Under the pieces are notes generated by a model. That model worked only from the letters and a program-made list of their open reading frames with translations. It had not been told where the DNA came from and did not search any database. From Clostridia bacterium (GTDB lineage: Bacteria > Bacillota > DSM-521 > Neomoorellales > SLTJ01): 64,000 bases of DNA. How positions within the stretch are numbered: position 1 is the stretch's first letter; every line of letters begins with the position of its first letter. The position numbers and the translations under genes are program-made. This document shows, piece after piece, positions 9,561 to 41,628 of this stretch. The stretch covers positions 1 to 64,000 of the forward strand of contig SLTJ01000017.1 of NCBI GenBank assembly GCA_004347685.1, in the 5' to 3' direction.

Positions 9561-9570
9561 CTGACGGGAA

Positions 9571-10780: not shown

Positions 10781-10803
10781 ACTATATTATCACTAGCTTA
10801 TAC
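10781..10803. promoter_or_regulatory. ArsR-type operator, copy 1 (upstream of permease)
   Basis: ACTATATTATCACTAGCTTA belongs to a set of four near-identical elements in the window (also at 15588, 23204 and 24483). Two of them lie directly upstream of arsR genes, so the set is best read as the binding site of this ArsR type, overlapping the promoter. No binding data can be seen here. Confidence 0.65.
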
Positions 10804-10812
10804 TGTGGCCGG

Positions 10813-10838
10813 TCAAAAACACCCTTCGAGGGGGTGTT
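10813..10838 (-). terminator. intrinsic terminator after the thioredoxin-like gene
   Basis: On the reverse strand AACACCC and GGGTGTT form a hairpin followed by TTTTGACC. It separates the operon that ends in the small disulfide protein from the permease unit that has its own operator. An equivalent hairpin lies at 23236-23262. Confidence 0.65.
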
Positions 10839-10896
10839 CTTGACCAGGAGCTGTCGTGTCCCAAAAACCTGGAAGCCGGGGGGTTGGGTTCTCCCG

Positions 10897-13214: not shown

Positions 13215-13385
13215 CTACCTCTGCGGCCGCATGATCTCGGCGCCCATGCAGCGGATAACCTTCTTTATCTTGGGCGCCACGCTCTGCAAGACAAAGGCCA
13301 GGGCCTCCTGGGTGTCCTTGTCCAGGCAGATCCTTTCCACTGCTAGAAGTTCCTTTTCGTCCAGGACGATAAAGCTCTTGGCCAT
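13215..13385 (-). CDS. conserved-looking 56-residue hypothetical protein
   Basis: A short frame from ATG 13385 to TAG 13215 encodes MAKSFIVLDEKELLAVERIC, then a Lys/Arg-rich second half ending in MRPQR. It fills exactly the gap between the cysteine desulfurase stop and the start of the Fe-S protein (TAG directly followed by GTG), which strongly supports translation. I do not recognise the family. Two cysteines (about 20 and 47) could take part in sulfur or metal handling with its neighbours; this is inference. Confidence 0.7.
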   Translation of the reverse strand: MAKSFIVLDEKELLAVERICLDKDTQEALAFVLQSVAPKIKKVIRCMGAEIMRPQR

Positions 13386-13387
13386 AA

Positions 13388-14551: not shown

Positions 14552-14588
14552 TAATCAGCCTCCTTCGGGCCGGCGCGGCCGGCCTGGA

Positions 14589-14972
14589 CTACCTTGCACC
14601 CTGGTCCGCTTGGTCCACCAAGAATTCCATGGCCGGCACGGCCGTGGCGAAGACGATGGAAGCGCTGACAAAGCGGGCCACCATGAGGGCCTCGGTAACT
14701 TCCTGCACCGTGGCGCCGCTGTGCATGGCCCGCCGGGCATAGGTGAGGGTGCAGAGCTCCGACCCGGCGGCCGCGGCCGCCGCCACGTACATCAGGGTCT
14801 TGTACTTGAGGGGAATGGTCTCTAGACCTTCCACAAACTGGCTGGAGCGTGCCTGCTCTCTCACCCCTTCCGGCAATAGCTGGACCAGGAGCTGCATGGG
14901 CAGGGGATCAGTCCCCAGCTTCTGCCGCATGTTCTCCAGGATCTGCTCAATGCTCATCTGCTGGCCGTTCAT
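14589..14972 (-). CDS. carboxymuconolactone decarboxylase / AhpD-like protein
   Basis: The 127-residue protein is of the CMD/AhpD fold: IPLKYKTLMYVAAAAAAGSE followed by LCTLTYARRAMHSGATVQEV and EALMVARFVSAS. The AhpD CxxC pair is reduced to one Cys. Its ATG overlaps the end of the decayed DUF169 gene. A paralogue (21745-22128) accompanies the second permease cluster. CMD-like proteins often accompany arsenic genes but the reaction is unknown. Confidence 0.8.
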   Translation of the reverse strand: MNGQQMSIEQILENMRQKLGTDPLPMQLLVQLLPEGVREQARSSQFVEGLETIPLKYKTLMYVAAAAAAGSELCTLTYARRAMHSGATVQEVTEALMVARFVSASIVFATAVPAMEFLVDQADQGAR

Positions 14973-15245
14973 CCCTTTTTGTCCTCCTTTAGGTAGACGT
15001 GGTAGATGCCTTTGCTGCGGGCGCGAACCATGGCTTTTTCCCCAAGGCCTTCTAGCCCTCGAACGATATTCTCTAGCTCGTCGCCCGGAAAACCAAGCAC
15101 GGTTTCCCGGGTTTCGATATCAGTTGCCCCCCGGCACCCTTGGCGATCTTTTCTGGGAGTGGGCGAAGCCCAAAGGCGGCGGCCGCAGCCGGACAGGACA
15201 GATTATCGGCGGTGAGTAGGACCTTTCTGAAGCCCCGCCCGCCCC
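14969..15245 (-). pseudogene. DUF169-family protein, frameshifted and internally deleted
   Basis: Just after arsR one frame gives LLTADNLSCPAAAAAFGL, the typical DUF169 segment around its conserved Cys. A second frame gives LGFPGDELENIVRGLEGLGE and ends VYLKEDKKG, the usual C-terminal part. The piece between is deleted and the frames differ. The TGA overlaps the ATG of the CMD gene, so it was once the second gene of the operon. DUF169 proteins are uncharacterised. Confidence 0.65.
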
Positions 15246-15248
15246 AGC

Positions 15249-15569
15249 TCACCCGCTCAGGGCGGCTACGGCGTTCTCGGCCTGCCGCTTCAAAATCCTC
15301 TTGATCAATTCCACCAGGGTGTATACCTCGGGATAATCGAGGCGGTAGATCACCCGCAGGCCGTCCTTGCGCGAACTGATCAGACCCTGGCGTTTGAGCA
15401 CGGCCAGGTGCTGAGAGACGTTGGCCTGCTCCAGCTCGAGCTCCTCCGTCACCTCGCACACGCAGCGTTCCCCCTCCCGCAGCAGGTCCTGGATGCGCAG
15501 CCGGGTGGGGTGGGCGAGGCTTTTCAGGAAATCGGCCTCCAGTTGGAAGATGTGATCACTGTCCTCCAC
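15249..15569 (-). CDS. arsR: ArsR-family metalloid-responsive repressor (locus A)
   Basis: The 106-residue protein has LKSLAHPTRLRIQDLL, the sensor EGERCVCEVTEEL near residue 32 and the recognition helix EQANVSQHLAVLKRQGLI. The CVC pair is that of As(III)/Sb(III) sensors. It heads the operon running to the disulfide protein at 10.9 kb. A matching operator lies just upstream (15588-15612), so autoregulation is likely. It is nearly identical in its first two thirds to the locus B regulator at 24134. Confidence 0.92.
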   Translation of the reverse strand: MEDSDHIFQLEADFLKSLAHPTRLRIQDLLREGERCVCEVTEELELEQANVSQHLAVLKRQGLISSRKDGLRVIYRLDYPEVYTLVELIKRILKRQAENAVAALSG

Positions 15570-15587
15570 GGCTCTTCTTCTCCATTT

Positions 15588-15612
15588 ACTATATTACGAT
15601 ACTCTTATATTA
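15588..15612. promoter_or_regulatory. ArsR-type operator, copy 2 (upstream of arsR, locus A)
   Basis: ACTATATTACGATACTCTTA lies about 20 bases upstream of arsR, inside the AT-rich promoter region. It matches the elements at 10781, 23204 and 24483. Position and repetition argue for autoregulation by ArsR. Confidence 0.7.
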
Positions 15613-15747
15613 TAAGGAGCTTAACTATAGGTGTCAAGGATTATTTTTCAGTTCCAGCACCGGGGTTAGTCCGTCCTGTCTGGTGACCTTTTCGGTTTTT
15701 CCCTAGCCACTGGCGCGGCCCAGAGTGGGTTTTGCGGCCCCCGCCTG

Positions 15748-15777
15748 TTGACAGTCTGGAAGGTGCAGAGTTATAAT
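15748..15777 (+). promoter_or_regulatory. promoter of the padR-arsM unit
   Basis: TTGACA and TATAAT are 18 bases apart, 50 bases before the TTG start of padR. It is the strongest sigma-A-like promoter in the island. Confidence 0.75.
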
Positions 15778-15826
15778 AACCTCATAAGCATTGCCCTTCT
15801 AGGTATTAAGGGGGTAAGGAGAGCCC

Positions 15827-16192
15827 TTGACCTTGGATTACACGAGCCCGGAGTACTGGAACGGGATGATCAAGATGAGCCTTTCCAGGTTCTTTATACT
15901 CCGGGTACTCTACACCCAGCCCATGCACGGGTATGAGATCGCCCGCACCGTGGCCGAGGTAACGCGGGGCTGCTGCACGCCCACGGAGGGGACCATCTAC
16001 CCGGTATTGCGGGAGTTTGAGGAGTGCGGCTGCGTTACCGCGAGCACCCAGGTGGTCAACGGCCGCGAACGCAAGATCTATACCCTTACGGACAAGGGGC
16101 GAAAGGCCTTTGAAGTGGCCGTGGAGGCCTGGCAGGAAGTGACACGGTATATCCTGCAAGCGGTAGAGGTACGGCAGGAAGAAGGAGCCTAA
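15827..16192 (+). CDS. PadR-family regulator with Cys pair, ars-linked
   Basis: The 121-residue protein has a PadR winged helix: FFILRVLYTQPMHGYEIART, PTEGTIYPVLREFEECGCV and RKIYTLTDKGRKAFEVAVEA. The loop TRGCCTP (about 46-52) and EECGCV supply four closely set cysteines, a plausible trivalent metalloid sensor analogous to ArsR CVC. TTG is chosen as start because AAGGAG lies five bases upstream. It precedes a decayed permease/Cys-protein fusion and arsM in the same direction, so it probably controls them. Confidence 0.85.
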   Translation: MTLDYTSPEYWNGMIKMSLSRFFILRVLYTQPMHGYEIARTVAEVTRGCCTPTEGTIYPVLREFEECGCVTASTQVVNGRERKIYTLTDKGRKAFEVAVEAWQEVTRYILQAVEVRQEEGA

Positions 16193-16250
16193 ATTTTTTA
16201 TGCTCATACCTTACACACCTATGCATTAGCCGCATAAGAAAGGGGACTTG

Positions 16251-16651
16251 ATGGTGGGTGTCAATTTTTTGAGCCAGACCCTCTACTTTTTCTTCACCAT
16301 TATGGCGGAGCTGGCGTTGTTCTCCAGGCTCTTCGGCAAGCAGGGGAGCAGTTGCTGTGATGTCCGGATTGAGGAGATCCCCCAAGAAGAAGACCGGGAG
16401 CAGGTTGCGGGGGGAAATCCCGGCGGCAGTAGTTGCTGCGGAGGCCCTATGCCTGACGTCCAAATCATTGATGTCGGTGGGGATCAAGTAGGTATCATTG
16501 GCCTCCGGGAGTACATAGCCGAGGTTATAAAGTTGGGACTGGCTAGCCAGGAGCAAGTCAAGGATGAACTTATCCACCGGGTACGGCAAAGGAATTATAT
16601 CGCCCCGGGCTCGGAGGGCTTACCGGAAGGCGCTGTGGCGGGAATACCAGA
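16251..16651 (+). pseudogene. chimera of permease N-terminus and small CC-motif protein
   Basis: The first 18 or so codons (LSQTLYFFFTIMAELALF) look like the beginning of an ArsP-type permease. They run directly into a different protein with KQGSSCCDVRIEEI, GGSSCCGGPMPDVQIIDV and EVIKLGLASQEQVKDELI. After a frameshift near 16620 the expected end YRKALWREYQKHV and a stop appear in another frame. An internal deletion thus fused two genes, and one more change broke the second. The intact Cys protein is a small companion of arsenic methylation and permease genes; its function is unknown. Confidence 0.65.
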
Positions 16652-16917
16652 AGCATGTATAAGGAAGCAGCCGCAACCGGAGTTGAGAAGCCATGTTCAC
16701 GGATTTAGTGGGCGAACTGGTGTGAGGTGGTTGCTAGTTTGGTTTAGACCCGGGCAGCCAAGATTCAAGGGAGTACTCTATACGGGGGCCCATACAACGA
16801 ACTTGGTGAAATGCGCTGCCCGCCATGCCTTAGCAGGGCGCGATGGCAGGCGGCGAGGCTTATGAAGGGGTATAAGAAATAATAAATATTGGAATTCAGG
16901 AGGGGGAGTTAGAGCGA

Positions 16918-17739
16918 ATGGCCAAAGAGCAAGAAATTGAGCGGATAGTGCGCGAGCGTTACCAGAAGGCTGCCAGGCAAATGCAAAGTGCAGGGGCAGC
17001 CTCCTGCTGCGGTCCGGCCACCTGTTGCGGCACCCCAAATGGCGGCGCCTTTGGGAGAACAGTTTACCTTACCGGGCAGGAGGATATACCAACAGACGCC
17101 CTTCAGGCCTCCCTGGGCTGCGGCAACCCCACCGCCCTGGCCGGCCTTGCACCAGGGGAAGTTGTTTTGGACCTGGGGTGCGGCGGAGGGCTGGACGTCC
17201 TCCTGGCCGCCCGCCGGGTGGGACCAAAGGGTCGAGTTTATGGCCTGGACTTTACGCCAGAAATGCTGGCTTTGGCCCGGCGCAACGCCGCCGCGGCCGG
17301 TGTAGATAACGTGGAGTTCCTGGAGGGCGAAATGGAGAACGTCCCCCTGGCGGACGCCACGGTAGACGTGATTATTTCCAATTGCGTCATCAACCTGAGT
17401 GTGGATAAAGAAAGGGTCTTGCGGGAGGCGTGGCGAGTGCTGCGCCCAGGGGGGCGCCTGGCCATCAGCGATATCGTCCTGCTGGGTGCCCTGCCCTCCA
17501 GGTTGAAGCAAAACCTGGAACTGTGGGCCGGTTGCGTGGCCGGGGCCCTGGGAAGGGACGAATACCTGAACCTCCTGCAGCAGGTGGGCTTCAGCGGTGC
17601 CGAGGTAGTGGTAACCAATACCTATTCTCGGGAGAATCTCTCACAGCGCGAGGGGTTGGCCCTTGCCCCGGAGGAAGTAGCGGCGGCGGAAGGAAAAATC
17701 GCCTCCGCCTTCGTGCGGGCCACAAAACCCCAGGGGTAA
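16918..17739 (+). CDS. arsM: arsenite S-adenosylmethionine methyltransferase
   Basis: The 273-residue protein has the SAM motif [20 protein letters not shown] near residues 82-101 and the post-I acidic YGLD. Three conserved arsenic-binding cysteines are present: C68 (SLGCGNP), C156 (SNCVINL) and C206 (WAGCVAG). The N-terminus adds [10 protein letters not shown] (29-38). It methylates As(III) to mono- and dimethylarsenicals, which ArsP-type permeases can export. AGGAGGGGG precedes the ATG. The 266 bases upstream hold only debris, including the first codons of a permease. A terminator follows. A deletion copy is at 24546. Confidence 0.95.
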
Positions 17740-23308: not shown

Positions 23309-23554
23309 CTATTTGGCCAGGGCGGAGGTAATTATCTGGGTGATTTCCGCCTTCGAGGGCACCCTCCCGGAGGCCTTGACCTCCCCGTCCACCACCAGCC
23401 CCGGGGTCATGAGCACCCCGGCCCTGGCGATCTCCTTGAGGTCAGTGACCTTGTCCACCGTGGCCTCGATGCCCAGTTCCTGGATCACCTCCTTGGTCAA
23501 GCGCTCCAGCTTCTGGCAGTTGGCACACCCGGTTCCGAGGATCTTGATTTCCAT
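23309..23554 (-). CDS. small redox-active disulfide protein (locus B)
   Basis: The 81-residue protein (MEIKILGTGCANCQKLERLT and LMTPGLVVDGEV) differs from the locus A copy at only a few positions. It is intact although the genes before it are truncated, hinting at selection to keep it beside arsP. The in-frame start three codons upstream is less likely. Confidence 0.85.
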   Translation of the reverse strand: MEIKILGTGCANCQKLERLTKEVIQELGIEATVDKVTDLKEIARAGVLMTPGLVVDGEVKASGRVPSKAEITQIITSALAK

Positions 23555-23585
23555 ACATACCACCCTTTCAACTAATTTAGGCAGG

Positions 23586-23880
23586 TCAAGTCTCTTCGGG
23601 AATGGCGTAGCCCAGGGCGGCCACCAGCTCCAGCATGGCCTCCTTCAGGTGGCGGTACTCGCCGGTAAAAAGCGGCCGGCTGCGCCCGATGCTCTGCTCG
23701 CCCAAAAGCAGCCTGGCGGCGAAGGCCAGACAGGTGACCTCTCCGCACTCCCGGCAGTTGGTGCGCGGCAGCCACTGGTAGATCTGCAGGGCGGTGGGCC
23801 GGGAGCGCGTTTCGTAGCAGGGCTCGATCTCCGCCCGCCGCCGGTAGGTGTCGTTGATCAAGTCCTTAAGCTGGTGCCGG
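23586..23880 (-). pseudogene. truncated Fe-S protein gene (locus B)
   Basis: This is the last 90 or so codons of the paralogue of the gene at 12660, nearly identical and with the same cluster motif LPRTNCRECGEVTCLAFAAR. The first half is deleted and the sequence joins, at about 23877, a piece of a cysteine desulfurase gene. The remaining frame could only be translated from an internal start. Confidence 0.8.
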
Positions 23881-24105
23881 TGACGTTGGAGGCGTGGTTG
23901 ACGACGATGAGGCGGGTGGACGGGCGTATGGCCTGGTACACCACCTCGTCGGCCTCCAGGGCCCGCTGATAGCTGCCCCGGCCGGCGCTGGCGCCCACCA
24001 GGCGCATGTAGTCGTAAACCGCCTGGTACACGGCCTCCGGCTTGGGGTAGGAGGTGGCCGCGTTGTCCAGATAGATGGGCGAAGCCATGGGTTGCTCTCC
24101 TCTCT
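23880..24105 (-). pseudogene. cysteine desulfurase fragments (locus B)
   Basis: The N-terminal part (YLDNAATSYPKPEAVY to LEADEVVYQA) is joined to the segment RPSTRLIVVNHASNVTGT from about 90 codons further on. This second piece then joins the truncated Fe-S gene. Both the Schiff-base lysine and the catalytic cysteine regions are gone. Two separate deletions relative to the intact gene at 13388 explain the structure. Confidence 0.85.
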
Positions 24106-24133
24106 CCGGCCAGGTCACCCGGAGCTTCTCATA

Positions 24134-24466
24134 CTATTTTCGTTCCTTCGTTTCCAGGGCGGCTACGGTGTCGTGGGCCTGCCTTTTCAGGATGCCCCGC
24201 ATGGTCTCCATAATGTTCCAGACTTCGGGGTAGTTGACCCGGTAAATCACCCGTAGGCCGTCCTTGCGTGAACTGATGAGGCCCTGGCGCTTCAACACGG
24301 CTAGATGCTGGGAGACGTTGGCCTGTTCCAGGTCCAATTCTTCGGTGACCTCACATACGCAACGTTCCCCCTGCCGGAGGAACTCCAGGATGCGTAGCCG
24401 TGTGGGGTGGGCGAGGGCTTTCAGAAAGTCGGCCTCCAGTTGCAAGATGTGATCACTGTCCTCCAC
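24134..24466 (-). CDS. arsR: ArsR-family metalloid-responsive repressor (locus B)
   Basis: The 110-residue protein has the sensor QGERCVCEVTEEL and the helix EQANVSQHLAVLKRQGLI, as in locus A. The C-terminal helix is different (METMRGILKRQAHDTVAALE). It has its own operator at 24483-24508. As the genes directly behind it are relics, its useful targets would be the small disulfide protein and, in trans, the permease promoters. Confidence 0.92.
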   Translation of the reverse strand: MEDSDHILQLEADFLKALAHPTRLRILEFLRQGERCVCEVTEELDLEQANVSQHLAVLKRQGLISSRKDGLRVIYRVNYPEVWNIMETMRGILKRQAHDTVAALETKERK

Positions 24467-24482
24467 GGCTCTTCTCCTCCAT

Positions 24483-24508
24483 ACTATATTATGATCATCT
24501 TATATTAT
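24483..24508. promoter_or_regulatory. ArsR-type operator, copy 4 (upstream of arsR, locus B)
   Basis: ACTATATTATGATCATCTTA is in the same position relative to arsR as the copy at 15588. The neighbouring 30 bases are also shared with locus A, up to the junction with arsM sequence at 24545. Confidence 0.7.
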
Positions 24509-24545
24509 AGAAAGCTTAACTATAGGTGTCAAGGATTATTTTTTA

Positions 24546-25124
24546 GTGCGCGAGCGTTACCAGAAGGCTGCCAGGCAAATGCAAAGTGCAGGGGCAGCCT
24601 CCTGCTGCGGTCCGGCCACCTGTTGCGGCACCCCAAATAGCGGTACCTTTGGGAAAGCGGCTTACTCTGCCGGGCAGGAGGATATGCCCACAGACGCCCT
24701 TCAGGCCTCCCTGGGCTGCGGCAACCCCACCGCCCTGGCCGACCTTGCTCCTGGGAAGGTTGTTTTGGACCTGGGGTGTGGCGGGGGTCTGGACGTGATC
24801 CTGGCCGCCCGCCGGGTGGGACCGGAAGCCAAGGTATACGGCTTGGACGTCAGCGATATCGTCCTCCTGGGTACCCTGCCGCCGGAGTTAAAGCGAAATC
24901 TGGAACTGTGGGCCGGTTGCATTGCCGGAGCCCTGGAAAGGGGCGAATACCTGGACCTCCTGCAGCAGGTGGGCTTCAGCGGTGCCGAAGTGGTGATAAC
25001 CCACACCTATTCCCGGGAAAACCTCCTGCAACGAGAGATGCTGGCCCTCACCCCAGGAGAAGTAGCGGCACCAGACGGGAAAATCGCCTCCGCCTTCGTG
25101 CGGGCGGTGAAACCACAGATATAA
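24546..25124 (+). pseudogene. arsM: arsM with internal in-frame deletion
   Basis: The frame encodes a copy of the methyltransferase at 16918 from about its residue 11 onward, but about 71 residues are missing between YGLD and SDIVLLG. The lost part holds the end of the SAM fold and the conserved arsenic-binding Cys of SNCVINL, so activity is very unlikely. The frame stays open, with GTG as possible start, and begins exactly where the upstream region of a divergent arsR has been joined to arsM codons. Confidence 0.85.
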
Positions 25125-25179: not shown

Positions 25180-25941
25180 TCACCAATTATCCATAGCAGG
25201 CGATACCATGCTGGCCCTTACTACCAACCGCTGCCTGCTGCTGTAGAGCGGGTTACAAGTGGTGAGGGTAAGGACTGGGTTCGCCGTAGGGGCCACCACA
25301 CTCCAGTCGGTCGGTTCCGTCACCCAGACCTTTTCCACTCGGTAACAATATGTTCTTCCTGAACTTACCAGATAAATGGTGTCACCTGCTTCCAACTTGT
25401 CAAGGTGCCGGAACCAGGCGCCATAGGTGGTTCGGTGGCCGGCAATGGCCACATTACCGGTTTCAGGGGGCCAGGCACTGTCGGGGTAATGGCCTGGCCC
25501 CCGGCGCAGATCCTTGGGGCTGACGCCATGTACTACGGCAGCCCAAAGGTCCAACTTAGGCACAACAACAATCGTAGGCGGCCAGGCATCTGGCGCCCCA
25601 GCGCCGTCGGGGGCCACCGATTCTTGGCGCTGTTCGACAGGAACTGAAGGGAGAACTTCCCGCGAGCTCTGAGCCTCTGGCATATCTGTGTCCGGCTGCG
25701 GGGAAGGCAAGGTGTCCCTAGCGTCACGGGAAATACTTGTTGCCCCCTCTCCCCCGTCTACCTGTCCTTCTGCCTCCTTGCGCCCGGCCGCCATTACCGG
25801 GTCTTCAGCAAAACTGCTGGCCCGCACGTGCAAATACTCCTGCCAGTACTCGGCATATGCCTCCATCAGAAGCGGCACAAATAGCAAAAACGCGCCGCCT
25901 ACGATAAGGCCGGCGCGCAAGAAAAATTTAAAACGACTCAC
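25180..25941 (-). CDS. sortase (class D/E-like) dedicated to the cytochrome
   Basis: The 253-residue protein has an N-terminal membrane anchor (about 9-29), a long Pro/Ser/Glu-rich spacer (about 45-120) and a C-terminal sortase domain. The domain has AIAGHRTTYG (H169), the catalytic LTLTTCNP (C229) and SSRQRLVVRA (R236 or R238). Sortases cut LPXTG-type signals and link proteins to the cell wall. Its ATG overlaps the stop of the LPKTG cytochrome gene by four bases, so that protein is its obvious substrate. It is the last gene of the formate dehydrogenase cluster. Confidence 0.9.
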   Translation of the reverse strand: MSRFKFFLRAGLIVGGAFLLFVPLLMEAYAEYWQEYLHVRASSFAEDPVMAAGRKEAEGQVDGGEGATSISRDARDTLPSPQPDTDMPEAQSSREVLPSVPVEQRQESVAPDGAGAPDAWPPTIVVVPKLDLWAAVVHGVSPKDLRRGPGHYPDSAWPPETGNVAIAGHRTTYGAWFRHLDKLEAGDTIYLVSSGRTYCYRVEKVWVTEPTDWSVVAPTANPVLTLTTCNPLYSSRQRLVVRASMVSPAMDNW

Positions 25942-26345
25942 TCACTATGGGCCCTCCTTTTGCCCATAAACAGCCCGGCCATTACCATGGCGGCCCCAAC
26001 AACTATATAGAGGTAGGGGTTGCCGCCTGTCTTGGGCAGCTCTTTCTCAGCCTTCTTCTCGACGGCTGCCGCCGGCTGGGCCGCTGGCTGCTCTTTGGCT
26101 GCCTCCGGTTTAGACTCAGCCTTGGTAAAGACGGCCCAGTCCTTCCCGGCCTTTACCCACGCCTGGCCACCGGCATTGAGCTCTGGATAGTTGGCCGTAT
26201 GGCAAAGGGTGCAGGTCTTGTTCTCCACCTCGGCCGGGATCTGTCCTATGTACTGGCTGCTGGCCAGGGCCACTGAAGCCACCCCAAAGATCAGAACAAC
26301 CGTGACGGCCAGAGAAACCAACAGGTAAATTCGCCCGCCTTTCAT
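25938..26345 (-). CDS. LPXTG-anchored monoheme c-type cytochrome
   Basis: The 135-residue protein has a signal peptide (to about residue 29), one heme-binding CTLCH (45-49), and an Ala/Lys/Glu-rich spacer. It then shows a complete sorting signal: LPKTG (103-107), a hydrophobic stretch (about 111-126) and KRRAHSE. It should be an exported cytochrome covalently fixed to the wall by the overlapping downstream sortase. It follows the FeS subunit of an exported formate dehydrogenase by 300 bases. A role as wall-bound electron acceptor is inferred. No haem lyase gene is in the window, although a ccdA is at 11.5 kb. Confidence 0.9.
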   Translation of the reverse strand: MKGGRIYLLVSLAVTVVLIFGVASVALASSQYIGQIPAEVENKTCTLCHTANYPELNAGGQAWVKAGKDWAVFTKAESKPEAAKEQPAAQPAAAVEKKAEKELPKTGGNPYLYIVVGAAMVMAGLFMGKRRAHSE

Positions 26346-26649
26346 GATCTCACCTCCTGTAGTCAGGTTTTAAAAGATGGCCTTGAAGGCTCTCGGCAAT
26401 TCCAGTACCGCCAGGCAACGGACTGGAGCGCAGTAGCCGCAGCCCGCTACTGCCTAAGCAATGAAGCTCGGAGGCACGGGGCCGGCGAACTGATCTCCGG
26501 CTTTGTGCCGGTAGCCCCATTCCCTACACCGGACCGGGCTTCAGGTACCGGTTACGGGCGCCTGGCTTAAAAAGTGGCCTCTTGGGCTCGCATAACACCT
26601 GTGAACCCTGCCACGGACCAGGTGCGGCAGGCAACCCTACATAAAATCA
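26346..26649 (-). other. structured intergenic region, possible cis-acting RNA
   Basis: No gene is seen between fdhB and the cytochrome gene. On the reverse strand the region folds on paper into nested helices: GGCAC...GTGCC around GCCGG...CCGGC, then CAGTAGC...GCTACTG, then CCAGT...ACTGG. Parts recall the GEMM (cyclic dinucleotide) aptamer (AGGG, GCAAAGCC-like CACAAAGCC, a final GTAGCGGGCTGCGGCTAC) but its GAAA tetraloop is absent, so I do not assign a class. Confidence 0.35.
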
Positions 26650-27411
26650 TTAGCTGTAAGTCCTCTTCCCTCTCCCGGCTCCCTCCGCCCACTGGAAGAC
26701 CGCGCTGGCAGCGACCAGACTTTGGAAGGGACGAAGCAACTCGGCCACCACGGAGGCCGAAACGCTCACCTTAGGCTCCTCTGGTAGCCCGTACTGAGAT
26801 GGGCGGGCAGTGAGGACATAAATGATGTGCAGTCCGCCCATTTCCTTTTCACCGTAAACCTGGGCCTGGGGATAACCCTGCTGTTTTAGCCGGCCGGCCC
26901 TCTCCCTGGCCCGGGCCAGTATTTCCTCCCGCGACCCAAAGCTCAGCGCCCCGCTGGGACAGGCCTGCACGCAGGCCGGCAGGAGCCCGTTCGTTATACG
27001 GTCAAAGCAAAGCCGGCACTTGCGGGACTTGCCAGCAGCCTTATCCACCTTCGGCACCTGGAAGGGGCAGTAAGTCTGGCAGATCCCGCAGCCAATACAC
27101 TTGCCAGTGTCTATGTCCACCGTTCCCAGGGCCGTACGGTGGGCCGCCTGCACCGGGCACATATTCACGCAGACGGCATCCCGGCAGTGCATGCACTGCT
27201 GCTTGCCAAAGTACCACCTCACCCCCTGGCCGTCCGCCTCGCGAAAAACCACGCGCGTCCAGGTGGTGGGGGTAAAGGCCGGCGGGTTCTCATAGCTGCC
27301 GCCAAAGACCGTCTTCTCAGCCGGCAGCTCGTTCCAGCTCTTGCAGGCCACCTGGCAGCCCCGGCAGGCGGTGCAAAGGGAAGTGTCAATTAGAACCGTG
27401 TTTCCTGCCAT
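26650..27411 (-). CDS. fdhB: formate dehydrogenase FeS subunit
   Basis: The 253-residue protein has four 4Fe-4S motifs: CTACRGCQVACK, CMHCRDAVCVNMCP, CIGCGICQTYCP and CRLCFDRITNGLLPACVQACP. This is the layout of FdnH/FdoH-type electron-transfer subunits. It passes electrons from the catalytic subunit to a membrane or extracytoplasmic acceptor. The C-terminus has a stretch (about 222-243) that could be an amphipathic helix but no clear membrane anchor. No cytochrome b (gamma) gene follows; the LPKTG cytochrome takes that place. The gene begins one base after the catalytic-subunit stop. Confidence 0.92.
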   Translation of the reverse strand: MAGNTVLIDTSLCTACRGCQVACKSWNELPAEKTVFGGSYENPPAFTPTTWTRVVFREADGQGVRWYFGKQQCMHCRDAVCVNMCPVQAAHRTALGTVDIDTGKCIGCGICQTYCPFQVPKVDKAAGKSRKCRLCFDRITNGLLPACVQACPSGALSFGSREEILARARERAGRLKQQGYPQAQVYGEKEMGGLHIIYVLTARPSQYGLPEEPKVSVSASVVAELLRPFQSLVAASAVFQWAEGAGRGKRTYS

Positions 27412-27412
27412 C

Positions 27413-30400
27413 TCACGCCCTCCTTATGGCGCACAGGAACGCCTTGTACTCGGGGATGTTGGTATTGGCGTCGCCCACGTGGGGGGTAAGCTCGTTGGCG
27501 CTGGGCCCGGCCGATAGGCCCTGGTAGCCCCAGTGCCAGGGCATCCCCACCACCTCTACCTCCTGCCCCCCGATTACCAATGGCTGCAGGCGAGGAGTGA
27601 CGCAAGCCTTGGCTATAATGGCCGAGCGGCGGTTGTAAACTACCACTTTGTCGCCGCTGGCGATGCCCAGCTTTCGTGCTAGGCCGGGGCTGATCTCCAC
27701 GAACATCTCCGGCATCAACTCGTTGAGCCAAGGAGAGTTTCTGGTCATGATGCCGCTCTGCCAGTGCTCGGACAGGCGGTAAGTGGTGGCTACCAGGGGG
27801 AACTCTCCCACGGCGGCAGCCGTCCATTTCCTTGCCGAGGGCAAGAATACCACCACCGGATTGTTCTGCTGCCTGGAAAGCAAATTGGCCACCGGGCTTT
27901 CCACCGGCTCGTAGTGCTCCGGGAAGGGCCCGTCGGCCATGGCGGCGGCAAAGAGGCGGCCCTGCCCCTCGGGCAGCATGATGAAGGGATTGGCCGCTGA
28001 TTTTTCCGGCGGGATCATGCTGCCGTCGGCAGCCTTCCAGCCAAAGTCCGGCACGTCATTCCGCTTCCACTCCCCGTTCTCCCACCAGATAACCGGAGCT
28101 GCTGCGTTCCACGGCTTACCAGCCGGGTCACTGGAGCAACGGTTATACAGGATGCGGCGGTTGAGGGGCCAGGCATAGGCCCAGTTGGGGTGAGTGCCGA
28201 TCCCGGCCTCCTCCTTTTGCCGCTTCTTGCAGGGCGGGTTGTTGAGGTCATTGTAGTAGCCCGAATAGATCCAACATCCGCAGGCTGTGCTGCCATCGTC
28301 CTTCAAGGCAGGGAAATTCGCCAAGGGTGATCCGGTAGCCGTATCGTAACCATTGATTTCCAGGGCTACCCTGGAAGTATCGGGCTCGCCTTCGCCGGCA
28401 CCGCCGTAATCCCAGGTGAGGTTGAGGATAGGATCGGGGAAAACACCGCCCTTCTCATACTCGGCCCGGATGGCCTTATAGAGCCTGTCGGCAATCCACA
28501 GGTCCGAGCGAGCTTCTCCTGGCGGATCGCATGCCTTGTACCGCCACTGGATCCAGCGGCCGCTGTTGGCAACGCTGCCCTCCTTTTCGTAGGAGATGGC
28601 GGCTGGCAGGAGGAAGACCTCGGTCTTAATACTTTGCGGATTGGCGCCGGGCCGTTTCCAGAAGGCCGCTGTCTCCGTCTCGAAGATGTCTACCACCACC
28701 ATCCAGTCCAGCTTCTCCAGGGCGCTGCGCTCAAACATGGCCTGCGGCCCGCCCACGGCCGGGTTCTGGCCCCAGGCAAAGAAGCCCTTGATTTCCCCGG
28801 CTGCCATATGCTCAAAGATGGAGATATGGGAGTGATCCCTGGCATCGAGCTTAGGCAGGTAATCATAGGCAAAATCGTTATCTGCTGTGGCCGCTTGGCC
28901 GTACCAGGCCTTGAGCAGGCTGACCAGGAACTTGGGCTTATTGCTCCAGTAGCTGGTCTTGGGGGTTTCCTTTTCAATGTAATCTTTCAGGGTGGGGTGC
29001 AGGGCAGCCTTAGGATGGCCTAGATACCCGGGCAGGTAGTGGTAGAGGAGGGCCATATCCGTGGAACCCTGCACGTTAGCCTCACCCCGCTGGGCATTCA
29101 CCCCGCCGCCGGCAATGCCGATGTTGCCGAGCAGCAACTGCAGGATAGCGATGGCCCGCACGTTCTGTGATCCGTACGTATGCTGGGTGATGCCCATGGC
29201 GTAGAGGATGTTACCGGCCTTATCGGGCCTGCCGGTAGAGCAGAAAAGCTCCGCCGCCTTTAAGAAGGTTTCCACCGGGCAACCAGTGATCTGGGAGACC
29301 TTTTCTGGGGTGTAGCGCGCATAATGTTTCTTGAGCAACTGGAAGACGCACTGCGGGTCCTGCAGGGTGGGATCCTTGCGCACTGCCCCATCAGGCCCGG
29401 TCTGGTAGGCCCACGAAGCTTTGTCGTACTTGTTGGTGTCCAGACCGCTGAAAACGCCGTCGTGGAAGGCAAAATCGGGATGAATTAAGTAGGAGGCATT
29501 AGTATAGTTCCTGACATATTCTTCCTGAATAAGATTATTTTGCAAAGCATAATTGATCAGGCCGCCGAGGAAGGCAATGTCGGTCCCAGGGCGGATGGGC
29601 ACGTGCAGATCGGCTGCGGCCGCGGTGCGGGTAAAACGGGGATCAACGGCTATAAGCTTGGCTCCCCTTGCCCGCGCCCGGTTGATCCACTTCATGGAAA
29701 CAGGGTGGTTTTCGGCCGTATTCACACCGATGGCCATGATCACGTCAGAGTTCTGGTAGTCAATCCAGTGGTTGGTCATCGCTCCCCTACCGAACGAGTT
29801 GGCCAGACCGGCCACGGTAGAGGAGTGTCAGAGGCGGGCATGGTGATCAATGTTTATCAGGCCCAGGGAGCGCTGCAATTTCACCAGCACGTAATTTTCC
29901 TCGTTGTCCAGGGCTGCGCTACCTAAGTGAGCCATGGCCGTGGTGCGATTGACCGTTACCCCGTTCTCGTCCTTGCTGACAAAGGTGGCATCCCGCGTCT
30001 GCTTCACCCTCCTGGCTATCTCCGCCAGGGCCCAGTCCCAGGATTTCACTTCCCAGCGGCCGGAATAGGGAGCGCGGTACAGTACCTTGGTCAGGCGCTG
30101 CGGATTGAGCTTCCGCTCCTTCGTGCTGGCATCGTAGATGCTGCGCAGGTTGAGCAGGGAGCTCCCTTTACTGCACAGGCTGCCCTCGTTAATGGGATGA
30201 TCTGGGTCGCCGCCAACAGCAGTCACCTCACCCTCCTCCACATAACAGATGGCGCCGCATCCCACACTGCAGTAGGGGCAGATGGTAGGGACTTCCTGGG
30301 CGTGGCGTATCCTTAACTTTTCCTGCGCCGGGGCTGGCACGGCCGCGCCATACCGGGGGAAGAAACCCCAACCCGTCAGGCCGGCCGCGGCCCCGGCCAC

Positions 30401-30439
30401 GCCCGAAAGCTTAAGAAAGCCGCGCCGCGAGATCTTCAT
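27413..30439 (-). CDS. fdhA: formate dehydrogenase catalytic subunit, selenoprotein, Tat-exported
   Basis: The 1008-residue product is obtained by reading TGA 29828-29830 as selenocysteine (residue 204). The context ARL-U-HSSTVAGLANSFGRG is the active site of FdnG-type enzymes. A Tat signal (SRRGFLKL, residues 4-11) and CPYCSVGCGAICYVEEGEV with SLCSKG for a 4Fe-4S cluster precede it. The molybdopterin domains fill the rest and end in GDANTNIPEYKAF. It oxidises formate to CO2 outside the membrane. ATG 30439 is chosen for its position at the Tat motif and the GAGGTGAAGG ribosome site. Annotation that stops at TGA would split it in two. Confidence 0.95.
29792..29830 (-). promoter_or_regulatory. 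UGA selenocysteine codon and bacterial SECIS hairpin
   Basis: Right after the in-frame TGA (29828-29830), TGGCC and GGCCA (29800-29814) enclose the loop GGTCT. This is the same apical G-G-U-C-U found in the E. coli fdhF SECIS, at the same distance of about 16-18 bases. It is where SelB would bind to insert selenocysteine. Confidence 0.85.
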
Positions 30440-30453: not shown

Positions 30454-31350
30454 TTAATATCTTGGAAACCCCGGAAGCACGGCACAACCGGCTCCCGGGA
30501 GGTATCCCCTACCCTGGACGGCCAAATCCAGTTGCCAGGTGGCCAGGTTTTCCAAAGCCAGTATTGCTTCTCCGTTTCTGGCTTCTGCATCCAATACCTT
30601 GAGGTAGCGATTACAAACCTTGCAGTAAGCGGCCCGCACATCCGGATCATCTTCCAGATACCACTGGCCCAACTCGTAGGGCCGGTCGTTACCGCAGAAG
30701 GGGCACTTCAGGCGCGGAAATACCCATTGCGTAGCGCAAAACCAGCATTCCAAAACCCTTTTCCCTTCTGGGGCTACGATTTTGGCCATGGCCGGGGCCA
30801 GACCGCATACCGGGCAGTATCCATTTCTCCACCCATCCAGATTGAAACGCCGGGAAACAGCCTGTCCGTATTGAACATAAAGCGGAGCCAGTGCTGCCAG
30901 GGCTACGAACCACTCCGCCTTGACGCCGGCATCTTGAAGGTTGTGAGCCGGAACCCTGGCCGGGTCCAGATCGTAATGCTCCAAAAGCTCCTGCAGACAG
31001 GCATAACTTTTCTCTGCCAGGACCGGCTCCGGCATCTCCACGCCTATCCCGGCACCCTGGAGAAAGAAGACGTGTTTTCCCAGTACCATGGCCAGTTGGC
31101 AAATATTGGCGCGGGCGGCCCTGACCACGTTTGCCTTGACTTCTGCCGGGAAGCCCATACTTGCCAAGGCCCGGCCTTGCCGCCAGCAACTCTCTACCCT
31201 GGCAGCAGGGGGTAAAATTAAGAATCCTTCTTCCGGTAACAACTCTATCTGGGCGGTAAAAATATCAGCGTAAAACTGGCGCAGATCCGCAGGCAGGCTC
31301 TGAAGCCTGTTTACATGCCACTTTAATGCCTCATTTGTCAGAACTGGCAT
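30454..31350 (-). CDS. fdhE: formate dehydrogenase accessory protein FdhE
   Basis: The 298-residue protein has an N-terminal helical part and a C-terminal rubredoxin-like portion with four CxxC pairs: GYCPVCGLAP, LECWFCATQW, LKCPFCGNDRP and AYCKVCNRYL. FdhE is needed for activity of exported formate dehydrogenases in E. coli. ATG 31350 is preferred, with AGGGGTG upstream; an extension to TTG 31368 is possible. It lies 14 bases upstream of the catalytic subunit and heads the operon. Confidence 0.9.
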   Translation of the reverse strand: MPVLTNEALKWHVNRLQSLPADLRQFYADIFTAQIELLPEEGFLILPPAARVESCWRQGRALASMGFPAEVKANVVRAARANICQLAMVLGKHVFFLQGAGIGVEMPEPVLAEKSYACLQELLEHYDLDPARVPAHNLQDAGVKAEWFVALAALAPLYVQYGQAVSRRFNLDGWRNGYCPVCGLAPAMAKIVAPEGKRVLECWFCATQWVFPRLKCPFCGNDRPYELGQWYLEDDPDVRAAYCKVCNRYLKVLDAEARNGEAILALENLATWQLDLAVQGRGYLPGAGCAVLPGFPRY

Positions 31351-31635
31351 TTTAAGCACCCCTGGCAATTATTTGTTTGACCAGGTAACTGTTCGAACAC
31401 CACAAATCTTTTTCCGATTTCTTTGCCGCAGTGAAGCCTGCCTGACCTCCGCTCTTAAGACGCTAGCAACGCAAATGAAAAAGCGGCGCCGAAGCGCCGC
31501 TGGGATAGGAATCCTCCTTGGCTAGTCCCGAATAACCCTCAATGTCTTGGTGTCAATACTAACCAGTGCTAGTACATATGTATTAACACTCTATTCTGCT
31601 GCCGATAATTCTGCTACCTGCCTTCGCTAGCTCAA
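31351..31635. other. intergenic region upstream of fdhE
   Basis: No gene seen. It holds the terminator at 31477-31501. On the reverse strand TTGACA near 31550 may be a -35 box for the fdh operon. A partial palindrome around CCAGTGCTAGTACATATG (about 31562-31580) could be a regulator site. A related CACTAGTGCT stands at about 36190 before the response regulator gene. Confidence 0.3.
31477..31501 (-). terminator. strong intrinsic terminator upstream of the fdh operon
   Basis: AGCGGCG and CGCCGCT form a hairpin with a short loop, followed on the reverse strand by TTTTTCATT. It insulates the formate dehydrogenase operon from reverse-strand transcription of the decayed genes to the right. Confidence 0.8.
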
Positions 31636-36277: not shown

Positions 36278-38251
36278 CTAACTTGCAGACTTCGTCTTAA
36301 TGATCTTGGTTGCATGATCCCGGCCAAAGTAGAAATTGAGCCACGAAGAGGTCCTCCATAATTCCCAATTGCACGGGGGCACTATATAACCCCCAATTTC
36401 CTCCGCTTTGTTATGACCATTTAGCCTTTCGTAGGCCTTTACCCACATACATCTCTTCTGGTTAGGGTATACCTCGCACCACCCCATATAACTCCCCCCA
36501 CATGGCCCGTTCCTCTGATTCTTGGGGCATTGGGACATGGGGCACAGATATGCTATATCAAACAAGGCGCAATCTCCACAACTCATACACCCGTACAAAG
36601 CTGCCTTCCCCAGGTGTTCGAAAGAGCTAAAAACCCTTCTCAGCGTCGGCCTGGAATCTATAACTGTGGCAATGGGCTTCAGCATCTTGAAGACGGGATT
36701 CTTTGGCTCAAAAAACAGGGCGTGAGCCAGCTTAGAGATGCCGTACATGGGCTGGAGCGATGGTCTCCTTACTCTCAAGGCAGGCTTTTCGAGGTTCAAC
36801 CCGCTCTCCAGATCTTTTTGAAAGAAATAGAAGCCATTGTTTTGCGGGTAGTCAAATTCAGGGACTAGATCCCTCCAGTTCTTCGACAGTTCTTCTCCCT
36901 TTTCAATGATATACTCAACCATATCGTACCTTATACCTTGACCACCAATATGGGCTCCAGCATATCCCATACCCTTGGCAACGGCATACATTTTAGCTGC
37001 CCTGTTCAGCCTGGCTGATACCCCCTTGTCCTTGGCCTTTGCTTCCTCGGCCAATTCTGCCAAAAGTTTGCCAGTAACTACACACCCGGGGATCTGGTTG
37101 GCATTCATTGCTCTTGCCGCTCCATATGACAGGACATAGATATTGGCCAGTACCGGTATGTTGTATTTGTTCATCTTCAACCACTGTAAAAGCTCGTGGA
37201 ACTTCCTGGCATCATACCCGACCTGGGTGATTAGAAACCCCGCCCCTGCCTGTATCTTCTTATCTAGCTTGTAGTATTGCCCCATGAGTTCGGACTCCAA
37301 TTGTTTAAAGGGCGAAACAGAAGCACCGGCAAAGAAATCCGTGGGGGCAAGGGTCTTCTTTTTCCCCATGACTTCGTGTTCCAGGCCATTGTTTACCGTT
37401 TTCACTAGCTGCAAAACATGCACCGGGTCCAAATCAAATACAGGTTTGGGTCTTCCGTTAAACGCATCGCTTGAAGGAAAATCCCCGGTCAGGACCAGAA
37501 TATTCCTTACCCCTTCCGCAGCCAGGCCGTAAAGTATACTTTCAATCTCGTTTCTGTTTTTGTCCCTGCAGGCAAGATGGACCAGGGGCTCCATTCCCAA
37601 TCTCTTGAGCTCAGCACACAACATCTCAGTAGAAAGGGCCGGGTTTCCACCAGGATTATCGGTTACACTCATAGCATGAATTCTACTGCCCCGGGCAGCC
37701 CTTTCAGCGTTGTCGATGATCTCCGCCTGCTGCAGTTCAAAAGCACCCCTCCCCGGAATTTGCTCCCAGGTGACACAAAAGATATCAGGGCTGAGAATTA
37801 CCTCTTTAAATGTGTTTGCTTTTTGTTCTAGCTTCTCCTTAACCCTTTCTTTCAGGCCAAGTGACTCAACCATCCGGAAAATAGAAGAATAGTCGTTGGC
37901 GGAGATGGAAATATAGTCTTCCGCATCAAGCTGCATCCCTTCCTCCCTGGTCCACCCTTTAGGAGCTTGCCCGTTAAAGCGGACATCTACCACGAGCAAG
38001 GGTATGTCTTTGGTTATCCACCCGCTGCGAAGCCGCTTATGAAGCGCGAAGGAGGTGCCCCGGGGCTCAAGGTACCCTAAAACAATGGCATCAGGCCGCT
38101 CTCTCCTGGCCCTCTCCAGGCCATCCTGCTCACTCTTGGCGTAGCTCACCTGAAAGGATTCTTCCAGGGCCTTTCCGGCCATCTCCAGAAAACTGGGCTC
38201 GCTACCAACCACAAGAATCCTGTGACTTCCATCTACATCTACTTTCTGCAT
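36278..38251 (-). CDS. metF: MetF-type methylenetetrahydrofolate reductase fused to receiver-like domain and MetV-like Cys domain
   Basis: The 657-residue protein has three parts. Residues about 8-135 form a receiver-like fold (HRILVVGSEPSFLEMAGKAL, IVLGYLEPRGTSF) where the phospho-acceptor Asp is replaced by Gly. Residues about 150-460 are a MetF TIM barrel (VLTGDFPSSDA, AGAGFLITQVGYDARKFHEL). The C-terminal part is a Cys-rich domain (YGCMSCGDCALFDIAYLCPM, QCPKNQRNGPCGGSY) as in MetV/MetF C-terminal partners. It should reduce methylene-THF to methyl-THF in the Wood-Ljungdahl pathway, with electrons entering through the Cys domain. Start ATG 38251 is chosen as the family-like beginning. Confidence 0.88.
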   Translation of the reverse strand: MQKVDVDGSHRILVVGSEPSFLEMAGKALEESFQVSYAKSEQDGLERARRERPDAIVLGYLEPRGTSFALHKRLRSGWITKDIPLLVVDVRFNGQAPKGWTREEGMQLDAEDYISISANDYSSIFRMVESLGLKERVKEKLEQKANTFKEVILSPDIFCVTWEQIPGRGAFELQQAEIIDNAERAARGSRIHAMSVTDNPGGNPALSTEMLCAELKRLGMEPLVHLACRDKNRNEIESILYGLAAEGVRNILVLTGDFPSSDAFNGRPKPVFDLDPVHVLQLVKTVNNGLEHEVMGKKKTLAPTDFFAGASVSPFKQLESELMGQYYKLDKKIQAGAGFLITQVGYDARKFHELLQWLKMNKYNIPVLANIYVLSYGAARAMNANQIPGCVVTGKLLAELAEEAKAKDKGVSARLNRAAKMYAVAKGMGYAGAHIGGQGIRYDMVEYIIEKGEELSKNWRDLVPEFDYPQNNGFYFFQKDLESGLNLEKPALRVRRPSLQPMYGISKLAHALFFEPKNPVFKMLKPIATVIDSRPTLRRVFSSFEHLGKAALYGCMSCGDCALFDIAYLCPMSQCPKNQRNGPCGGSYMGWCEVYPNQKRCMWVKAYERLNGHNKAEEIGGYIVPPCNWELWRTSSWLNFYFGRDHATKIIKTKSAS

Positions 38252-38345
38252 TCCTTGCCTCCTCCTTTCTACAGGAAACTGCCTCCGCCTCAAAAGAGCG
38301 GCCTTTGCCCCTTCAGGACGCACTCCTTTCCTCGGGGCATAATCT

Positions 38346-38825
38346 TTACCTGGTGAGCATGAGTTCAATCCTGTCTATTTCCTTGAGCACGTCCTCCATC
38401 CGGTTTGCAACTTCCTTGAGATCTGCAGGCTCCTGCTTGGCCGTTCTTCGCAGAATTCCTCCCACGATTTCCCAAAGGTCAGATGGCTCCAGCGGACGAG
38501 AAACGTAATCCTCAGCTTCCATCTGTAGCCCTTCGTACCTTCTCCACCCCTTCCGGTGGTATTCCTCGGCGCAGACATCTACTACTACCAACGGGGTATT
38601 CTTCGTTGTCAAGTTCTCGCGTAGTTCATTATGGACCTGGAATGAAGTGCCCCGGGGCTCCAGATACCCAAGAATAATCAGGATGGGGGCTTTCTTCTTC
38701 GCTTGCTCCATTCCCTCGTTTCTGTTCAGTGCAGATACCACCTCGAAATACGGCTCAAAAGTCATCTTTACCATCTCGACAAAATCCGTATCCACATCAA
38801 TCACCAAAATCCTTGGCCTTTGCAT
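38346..38825 (-). CDS. stand-alone receiver-like protein lacking the phospho-Asp
   Basis: The 159-residue protein (PRILVIDVDTDFVEMVKMTF, then ILIILGYLEPRGTSFQVHNE, then a Tyr/Glu-rich AEDYVSRPLEPSDLW) is homologous to the N-terminal domain of the adjacent MetF fusion. The Asp that receivers phosphorylate is Gly in both, within the shared GYLEPRGTSF. A C-terminal helix (EPADLKEVANRMEDVLKEID) suits dimerisation. It lies 95 bases upstream of metF. It is probably a protein-interaction module for an Wood-Ljungdahl enzyme complex and not a phosphorelay protein. Confidence 0.8.
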   Translation of the reverse strand: MQRPRILVIDVDTDFVEMVKMTFEPYFEVVSALNRNEGMEQAKKKAPILIILGYLEPRGTSFQVHNELRENLTTKNTPLVVVDVCAEEYHRKGWRRYEGLQMEAEDYVSRPLEPSDLWEIVGGILRRTAKQEPADLKEVANRMEDVLKEIDRIELMLTR

Positions 38826-39702: not shown

Positions 39703-41628
39703 CTAACCCACCTCCGCGAAGGCCCGGGTGGCCAGGCCCAACCCGGCGCGCCGCTGCTGGATGGCTTCGTAAACCCTGGCGGCAGCCTGCAACGGGTCGG
39801 TCTCCACGATGAAGTACCCGCCGGTCAGCTCCTTCAGACCGGCGGTCAGAGTCTCGGCCACGACCCGGCTTCCCAGCACCGGCGGCACCACCCCCAGGTG
39901 CACCGGCAGCCCGGCGGCTACGGCCCAGGTACCAATGGACACCGCCTTTTCGGTCGTGTACTCGGGGGCCGAGGCCACCACCGGCAGCCTGTCCAGGTCT
40001 ACTCCCAGCTTGTTGGCTAGGGCCACCGCCACGTCTACGGCCCGGGAATTGTCCACGCACGAGCCCATGTGCAGAACCGGAGGGAGGGGACCGGACAGGC
40101 CATTGGCTTCGCCTATGGCGGTCAACACTGCCATCAACCCTGGACCGGCATAGCGCAGGGTGGCTGCAGGGTCCAGAAAGCCGTGCCTGGCAAAGGCGCC
40201 GGCACCACACCCGGTGGCGAGCAGGAGAACATCACGTTTAAGTAGCTCTGCAGCCATGGTGATGAAATTGCGGTCCTGCGGTACCTTGACGTTGGCACAG
40301 CCGGCAAAAAGGACTACCCCCTGGATGTTGCCGTTCACAATGTTGTCCAGAAGAGGCTTAAGCGGGTCTTCGGAACTAAGCTTACCCAAGGCGGCTACGA
40401 TAGCCTCGGTGGAAAAACCGGCCACCACTTTGGTCTTGACTGCCGGGATCTCCACCGGCCGGCCCTGCCGCGCCTGGAAGGCGACTATTGCCAGCCGCAG
40501 GATTTCTTTGGACTGCTCCAGGGCCTTTTCTTCTTCCACCTCCAGGTGGGTTGCCCCGGGTATTTTCGCTATGCCCATGGTGGTTACCACCCTGGTGCCG
40601 TAACATTCGGCCACCTGCACCAGGGAGGGATAGATGCACTGGTAGTCTACTATAATGGCGTCCAACGCGCCGGTGAGGATAGGAAGTTCCTGGGAGATGG
40701 CGTGGGTGAGGGGTGGGACCCCGTGCCGCATGAGGACTTCGTTGCCGGTACAGCAAATGCCTACCAGGTTAATCCCTTCCTCAGCCCCGGCCGCCCGAGC
40801 CTCCTGTTGCACCTCCCCGGCTGCCGTGACCACTAGGTCGGAAAGGACCGGGTTATGGCCGTGGAGGGCCACGTTCACAGCCCGCTCCTTTAAAACCCCC
40901 AGGTTGGCCTCGCTCACCACCGGCTGCGGTGTGCCAAAGAGGATGTCAGCCAGGTCGGTGGCCAGGTGGCAGCCGGCATAGTCGGCCACGGCGCATTTCA
41001 AGCCTCCGGCCAGCAGGTTGAGGGGATCGGCGTCCACCCCCATGGTGGTGCGGTGCATTACCTCGCTGATGGCGGCGTCAATACCGCCGGGCACGGCGCC
41101 CAGCCGGCCCAGGGCTTCCTGCCTGCCATGGGTCAGCGTGGAAACGGCCCACGCCTGAGGTGATTCCTTCTCGCTGAATTCTGCCAGGGCCGCCTGGCTG
41201 ACCGCCCGGGCCAGTTCGAGGGTATCCTTACCCTCCCCGTCCACGCCCAGCCGCGCCGCCACGGCCCTTAACTTGGCGTCATCCTTAACTGCATAATCTT
41301 TTGCCGACCCTCCGGCCACCTTTGCCAGGACGTGGGCCAGGTGCTTGGCGTGGCCGGAATGGGCCGCCGTGCCGGCGGCAATGGCCCGCAGGAGCCCGCG
41401 GGCTACCATGGTGTCGGCCGTAGCCCCGCAGACTCCCCGCTGCGGCCCGTCGCCGAAGGGGTCAATGCGGCACGGCCCCTGGACGCAGTGACGGCAGCAG
41501 AGGCCCAGGTCACCAAAGCCGCACTGAGGCTGTTGCCTCTCCAGGCGGTCCCAGACAGTTTCAACACCCCGCCCGGCAGCTACCCGCAGCATTTGCAGGC
41601 TGGCAGCGTCTAGAGAACGTTCAGACAC
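39703..41628 (-). CDS. cooS: anaerobic carbon monoxide dehydrogenase, Ni-Fe catalytic subunit
   Basis: The 641-residue protein is of usual CooS length. The N-terminal Cys cluster CCRHCVQGPCRIDPFG with GVCGA holds the B/D clusters. Further conserved features are VALHGHNPVLSD, NLVGICCTGNEVLMRHGVPP, VLFAGCANVKVPQD, LLATGCGAGAFARHGFLD and LHMGSCVDNSRAVDV, which supply C-cluster ligands. It interconverts CO and CO2. GTG at 41628 with AAGGAG ten bases before is the start and overlaps the preceding gene by 19 bases. No cooC nickel-insertion gene is in the window. Confidence 0.95.
   Translation of the reverse strand: MSERSLDAASLQMLRVAAGRGVETVWDRLERQQPQCGFGDLGLCCRHCVQGPCRIDPFGDGPQRGVCGATADTMVARGLLRAIAAGTAAHSGHAKHLAHVLAKVAGGSAKDYAVKDDAKLRAVAARLGVDGEGKDTLELARAVSQAALAEFSEKESPQAWAVSTLTHGRQEALGRLGAVPGGIDAAISEVMHRTTMGVDADPLNLLAGGLKCAVADYAGCHLATDLADILFGTPQPVVSEANLGVLKERAVNVALHGHNPVLSDLVVTAAGEVQQEARAAGAEEGINLVGICCTGNEVLMRHGVPPLTHAISQELPILTGALDAIIVDYQCIYPSLVQVAECYGTRVVTTMGIAKIPGATHLEVEEEKALEQSKEILRLAIVAFQARQGRPVEIPAVKTKVVAGFSTEAIVAALGKLSSEDPLKPLLDNIVNGNIQGVVLFAGCANVKVPQDRNFITMAAELLKRDVLLLATGCGAGAFARHGFLDPAATLRYAGPGLMAVLTAIGEANGLSGPLPPVLHMGSCVDNSRAVDVAVALANKLGVDLDRLPVVASAPEYTTEKAVSIGTWAVAAGLPVHLGVVPPVLGSRVVAETLTAGLKELTGGYFIVETDPLQAAARVYEAIQQRRAGLGLATRAFAEVG

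Follow-up and report, generated by a model that had tools for sequence, protein, structure and literature searches.

A formate dehydrogenase (FDH) of the exported selenocysteine type is encoded in a 64,000-nucleotide stretch (the window) of contig SLTJ01000017.1 from Clostridia bacterium (GCA_004347685.1), and downstream of it lie genes for a small monoheme protein with a complete LPKTG sorting signal and for a sortase. We see an even chance that this protein, tethered to the wall, accepts electrons from the FDH, which is the likeliest reading. The five genes lie on the minus strand in the order fdhE, fdhA, fdhB, then, after a 304-bp gap, the heme-protein gene and the sortase gene. Their host is a 129.7-kb contig; the genome spans 3.1 Mb, is 99% complete and shows 0.16% contamination. 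GC content around the locus ranges from 0.51 to 0.63 per kb without a sharp break.

The heme protein (25938..26345, minus strand) is 135 residues long, and comprises a signal peptide, a compact segment bearing the motif CTLCH, a disordered linker of 30 residues rich in alanine, lysine, glutamate and proline, the LPKTG motif, a hydrophobic helix and a KRRAHSE tail. Signal peptide, LPXTG motif, hydrophobic stretch and positively charged tail together are those of a sortase substrate, and the protein scores above cut-off against PF00746 (27.6 bits; cut-off 20) and likewise against TIGR01167. A structure model with a signal helix, small module, disordered linker and transmembrane helix agrees with this reading, upholding the original prediction of a small exported protein with one CTLCH heme motif and a full sorting signal. 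The protein is also predicted to bind heme as a c-type cytochrome: it is exported, has CxxCH, and the genome carries maturation genes of the System I (Ccm) heme-attachment pathway, namely CcmF, CcmC and CcmH. ResB was not found in the genome; the objection that heme could not be attached without it was discarded, since Ccm genes exist.

The heme module occupies the first ~75 residues and follows the pattern CxxCH...P.LN..G. The same module forms the N-terminus of 4-, 6- and 9-heme cytochromes, occurs in proteins of other Firmicutes, and is found in this genome in a membrane-anchored monoheme protein encoded after NrfD; because it recurs in multiheme cytochromes and beside NrfD complexes, we regard the CxxCH of the heme protein as part of a conserved redox module, not as a motif arisen at random. 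A fold search with the heme-protein model returned no match, and a profile of the module found only a weak match among solved structures ('Multiheme cytochrome cf', 6qvm, E 0.008), which is no more than a lead.

The sortase (25180..25941, minus strand; PF04203, 115 bits) has an N-terminal membrane anchor and the catalytic residues of its family: across 25 aligned sequences, His169 and Cys229 do not vary and Arg238 hardly does. It is class E-like: its best matches in both sequence and fold are class E sortases (SrtE; 5CUW, 9IOK), although its 125 bits lie below the NCBIfam class E cut-off of 160 (NF033747). The sortase gene overlaps the heme-protein gene by the four bases GTGA (25941-25938), as originally described. 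Across the whole genome we detected one PF04203 sortase and one PF00746 protein over cut-off, and these are the adjacent pair at this locus; since the sole detected sortase adjoins the sole LPXTG protein over cut-off, their pairing is more than chance.

The enzyme itself is conventional. The fdhA gene (27413..30439, minus strand) encodes 1008 residues when an in-frame TGA (29828..29830), on both sides of which the reading frame runs on, is read through as selenocysteine; one in-frame TGA is also present in most FdhA relatives. Directly 3' of this codon is a match to the bacterial selenocysteine insertion sequence (SECIS) element (29775..29833, minus strand; RF01989, 38.2 bits, E 5.3e-6, short of the family's curated gathering score of 63), and the RNA hairpin at this site is more stable than those of shuffled sequences (z -2.8). 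With a twin-arginine translocation (Tat) signal (PF10518) and 1216 bits against TIGR01553, the FDH-N alpha family whose cut-off is 814, FdhA is a full FDH-N catalytic subunit; its nearest solved structures are Desulfovibrio FdhAB (9qm0, 6sdr) and E. coli FdnG (1kqf). The fdhB gene (26650..27411, minus strand) encodes a subunit with motifs for four [4Fe-4S] clusters, nearest among solved structures to E. coli FdnH (1kqf_B) and Desulfovibrio FdhB (6sdr_B). It scores under the TIGR01582 cut-off (211 versus 334.7 bits), yet is homologous to the FdnGHI beta subunit. Its C-terminal hydrophobic segment, which we take to correspond to the membrane helix of FdnH, is weaker than in most relatives: its hydropathy is 1.38, whereas the median of 45 relatives is 1.67. 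Upstream of fdhA, fdhE (30454..31368, minus strand) encodes an FDH assembly protein (PF24859/PF24860 just over cut-off; TIGR01562 59.8 bits, under cut-off). The prediction of an exported seleno-FDH with a Tat-signal catalytic subunit and a four-cluster iron–sulfur subunit thus stands. In the gap between fdhB and the heme-protein gene (26346..26649, minus strand) we found a good ribosome site, AGGAGGTGAG, ahead of the heme-protein gene, and neither a clear terminator nor a clear promoter; the idea of a gene remnant there found no support, as the frame read is interrupted by stop codons and the gap shows no conspicuous repeats.

We sought relatives of this FDH in 398 genomes of the phylum, 95 of which contain FdhA relatives, and read 80 named FDH loci. 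The electron partners beside relatives of FdhAB vary: NrfD (PF03916), cytochrome b561 (PF01292), RnfC/RnfD, a NiFe hydrogenase small subunit, tetra- or heptaheme cytochromes, or none. NrfD accompanies FdhAB in at least ten relatives and in a genome of the same order (G009), whose FDH gene set has the NrfD form. In a tree of 79 FdhA sequences, built in quick mode, partner types cluster yet have been swapped repeatedly, and the window FdhA lies nearest to sequences without a partner beside the FDH, its exact sister being weakly supported. A cytochrome b neighbour in two close relatives (L062, L102) was rejected, since the protein resembles an ABC-transporter permease. In another relative (L142 in G189, 5099-11132), a gene for a Tat NiFe hydrogenase small subunit comes after FDH genes of this family and shares their strand. 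At seven further loci (L059, L082, L087, L093, L095, L096 and L129) such FDH genes are followed by RnfC/RnfD-type genes, confirmed by Pfam in L059 and L082 only; this arrangement suggests direct coupling of an exported FDH to Rnf.

Genes for NrfD, cytochrome b561 and Rnf are absent after the window fdhAB, and a search of the rest of the genome revealed no FdnI-type gene that pairs with this FDH, which removes one objection to the original prediction; the cytochrome b561 genes found are on other contigs, one of them beside a heptaheme cytochrome. The absence of a cytochrome b subunit, which the prediction pointed out, is real, but it is not distinctive: as the closest FdhA relatives also lack a membrane subunit, what is special here is the sortase-anchored heme protein.

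That protein stands alone among the genomes searched. No heme–LPXTG–sortase set was found near FDH genes in the 80 named loci or in FDH loci retrieved from the phylum genomes, nor any sortase-anchored heme protein in the other genomes, 398 of the phylum and 22 of the order, 32 of the phylum sample having sortases. Around 29 related sortases, the LPXTG neighbours read carry no heme, several of the sortases adjoining ordinary LPXTG proteins, and a six-frame scan of 2.38 Mb of DNA gave no second frame combining CxxCH with LPXTG. The pair was thus found near FDH in no relative, an outcome named beforehand as counting against the prediction, and the link to FDH comes from a single genome. The accompanying statement that no system with this gene set had been described is borne out by the literature searched, which yielded no sortase-anchored c-type cytochrome.

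Two other loci resemble this one in plan. On contig C90 of genome G129 (L159, 9415-4636), a compact operon begins with the gene for a monoheme protein that has an SLH anchor and the same heme module as the LPKTG protein. This gene precedes that of an iron–sulfur subunit by 33 bp, the latter precedes that of a Tat molybdenum (Mo) oxidoreductase by 19 bp, and a gene for a TorD-type chaperone comes next; a membrane subunit is absent, and the enzyme is of the PhsA/DMSO-reductase type, not an FDH. In the genome studied here (contig C28, L168, 5443-10566), genes for a Tat Mo-oxidoreductase, an iron–sulfur subunit, a diheme protein and a chaperone lie together without NrfD or another membrane subunit, and the diheme protein has a Cu_amine_oxidN1 (CuAO_N) domain, its gene overlapping the preceding one by 4 bases. 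By analogy, both loci speak for a general plan whereby the two subunits of an exported Mo enzyme would work with a surface heme protein that replaces the quinone-reducing membrane subunit. The G129 locus also has, at 16136-12288, genes for another Tat Mo-oxidoreductase and, next to it, another SLH protein, whose motif is of the CX4CH form (CYKSGCH).

Among described systems, E. coli FdnGHI (1KQF) is close in its A and B subunits, FdhA exceeding the TIGR01553 cut-off and FdhB matching FdnH best, but the PF01292 cytochrome b (FdnI) is absent beside the window fdhAB and the heme protein and sortase are found there instead. The NrfD-type formate:quinone oxidoreductase FqoABC, a comparison we make tentatively (PMC8076601), likewise has homologous A and B subunits, and the G009 set has this form, but there is no NrfD subunit near the window FDH. 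Since the third subunits of both systems were sought beside the FDH and are absent, the locus is neither FdnGHI nor FqoABC; it is an FDH of standard exported type beside an acceptor type that is new within the scope searched. Periplasmic FdhAB of Desulfovibrio passes electrons to a soluble periplasmic cytochrome c3. It resembles the window enzyme as an AB enzyme without membrane subunit and is the closest solved FdhA (6SDR, 9QM0), whereas the window has a wall-tagged monoheme protein in a Gram-positive-type cell. OcwA, CwcA and ImdcA of Thermincola (PMC6703420, PMC7911101) are c-type cytochromes that a thermophilic Firmicute places in its cell wall or at the wall, and the genome studied here also encodes multiheme cytochromes, some with surface-type domains; the Thermincola proteins differ in being multiheme and without link to FDH, and the two papers do not mention sortases or LPXTG. 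The nearest case in the literature is the 17-heme cytochrome CFE_2239 of Carboxydocella, for which CW-PRED predicted wall anchoring (PMC6085454); it differs in its heme number, in having no FDH and in being a prediction only. The heme-SLH locus of G129 is like the window locus in heme module, wall anchoring and enzyme architecture and differs in the kind of anchor and of enzyme, and class E sortases are the closest relatives of a sortase that nevertheless falls below their family cut-off.

How the parts would work together can be proposed from these features. FdhAB would be exported folded by Tat and act at the outer face of the membrane, where FdhA would oxidise formate and the electrons would pass through the iron–sulfur clusters of FdhB to the heme, a monoheme c-type protein thus taking the place of the quinone-reducing membrane subunit. 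The dedicated sortase would cut between the threonine and glycine of LPKTG and join the heme protein to peptidoglycan, so that the heme would sit in the wall next to the FDH on a tether of ~30 residues. From there electrons may pass to multiheme cytochromes (contigs C4, C12 and C17), or to quinone through an NrfD module (C6, with a transmembrane monoheme protein) or a b561–heptaheme module (C20). By gene content the genome has candidates for multiheme surface cytochromes and for a quinol-oxidising entry complex, and since it encodes multiheme cytochromes with surface-type domains, it is plausible that electrons reach the cell outside, as extracellular electron transfer. On C20 (L240, 9600-11310), the gene for a cytochrome b561-type protein adjoins that for the heptaheme cytochrome c; together they may form an entry point that oxidises quinol and feeds surface cytochromes.

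The case for a partnership between FDH and heme protein rests on the common strand, the GTGA overlap, the sole sortase–substrate pair, the lack of a usual membrane partner, the recurrence of the heme module in other redox proteins, the parallels in G129 and on C28, and the Ccm genes. Several observations weigh against it. The heme–sortase set beside FDH is known from one genome; 304 bp without a gene separate it from fdhB; the nearest FdhAB relatives commonly stand alone with no known acceptor, so this FDH may not need the heme protein; and one tethered heme cannot alone carry electrons across a cell wall, which is 20-80 nm thick (PMC7911101). The mature heme protein, furthermore, has no histidine or methionine other than the CxxCH histidine and hence no obvious sixth heme ligand, a trait shared by most modules of its family; lysine or some other residue could serve, or a partner could provide the ligand. 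The original prediction of a wall-linked acceptor for formate oxidation thus fits the gene content and the export and anchoring signals, while its FDH link comes from one genome and no FDH relative has the pair.

The main rival, a substantial possibility that we nonetheless doubt, is that the genes are neighbours by chance: the heme and sortase genes would form a unit of their own that serves other surface cytochromes, while the FDH would use a different route to reduce quinone or a soluble carrier. The gap, the absence of the pair near FDH in every relative, the partnerless state of the nearest FdhAB sets and the other quinone-linked modules of the genome (on C6 and C20) all favour this, whereas the shared strand, the lack of a clear terminator in the gap, and the G129 and C28 operons, in which an enzyme of this type is likewise accompanied by a surface heme protein, speak for the partnership. 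A partnership might also run in reverse, with electrons from the surface reducing CO2 to formate; the organism has CO dehydrogenase as well. Genes for CO dehydrogenase and methylenetetrahydrofolate reductase do lie ~6-11 kb away in the window, and Desulfovibrio FdhAB, the closest solved relative, is reversible; an exported enzyme would, however, release its formate outside the cell, and we judge this direction distinctly unlikely. Wall-anchored heme proteins also serve iron uptake, as in the Isd system, and the missing distal histidine or methionine would suit a protein for heme uptake, sensing or stress rather than an electron carrier. Against this, CxxCH and Ccm lead one to expect covalent heme, the same module heads multiheme respiratory cytochromes, and Pfam finds no NEAT domain in the protein; we consider such a function very improbable.

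Other features of the window lie outside this argument. A group of genes at 23309-25124 (thioredoxin_3, partial desulfurase-like genes, arsR and a shortened arsM-like methyltransferase gene), which stops just before the sortase gene, resembles a second, partly deleted copy of the group at 12660-17739, 6-11 kb upstream. At 36278-38368 a methylenetetrahydrofolate reductase carries an additional region at its N-terminus that is similar to a response-regulator receiver; adjoining it, at 38346-38825, is a stand-alone protein similar to that region; CO dehydrogenase is encoded nearby (39703-41628).

More broadly, and only tentatively, the sortase-anchored cytochrome may be a dedicated FDH acceptor through which formate is oxidised at the surface and electrons enter a wall-heme pathway without prior reduction of quinone, as one case of a wider plan among Firmicutes in which exported Mo-oxidoreductases trade their membrane subunit for wall-anchored (LPXTG or SLH) heme proteins. 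Electron passage through the thick Gram-positive wall is poorly understood; if the partnership holds, a heme that its own sortase bonds to the wall, next to an enzyme already studied in depth, would provide a small, testable model of it, and it would follow that a wall anchor can wire exported Mo enzymes to the surface in place of a quinone-reducing membrane subunit.

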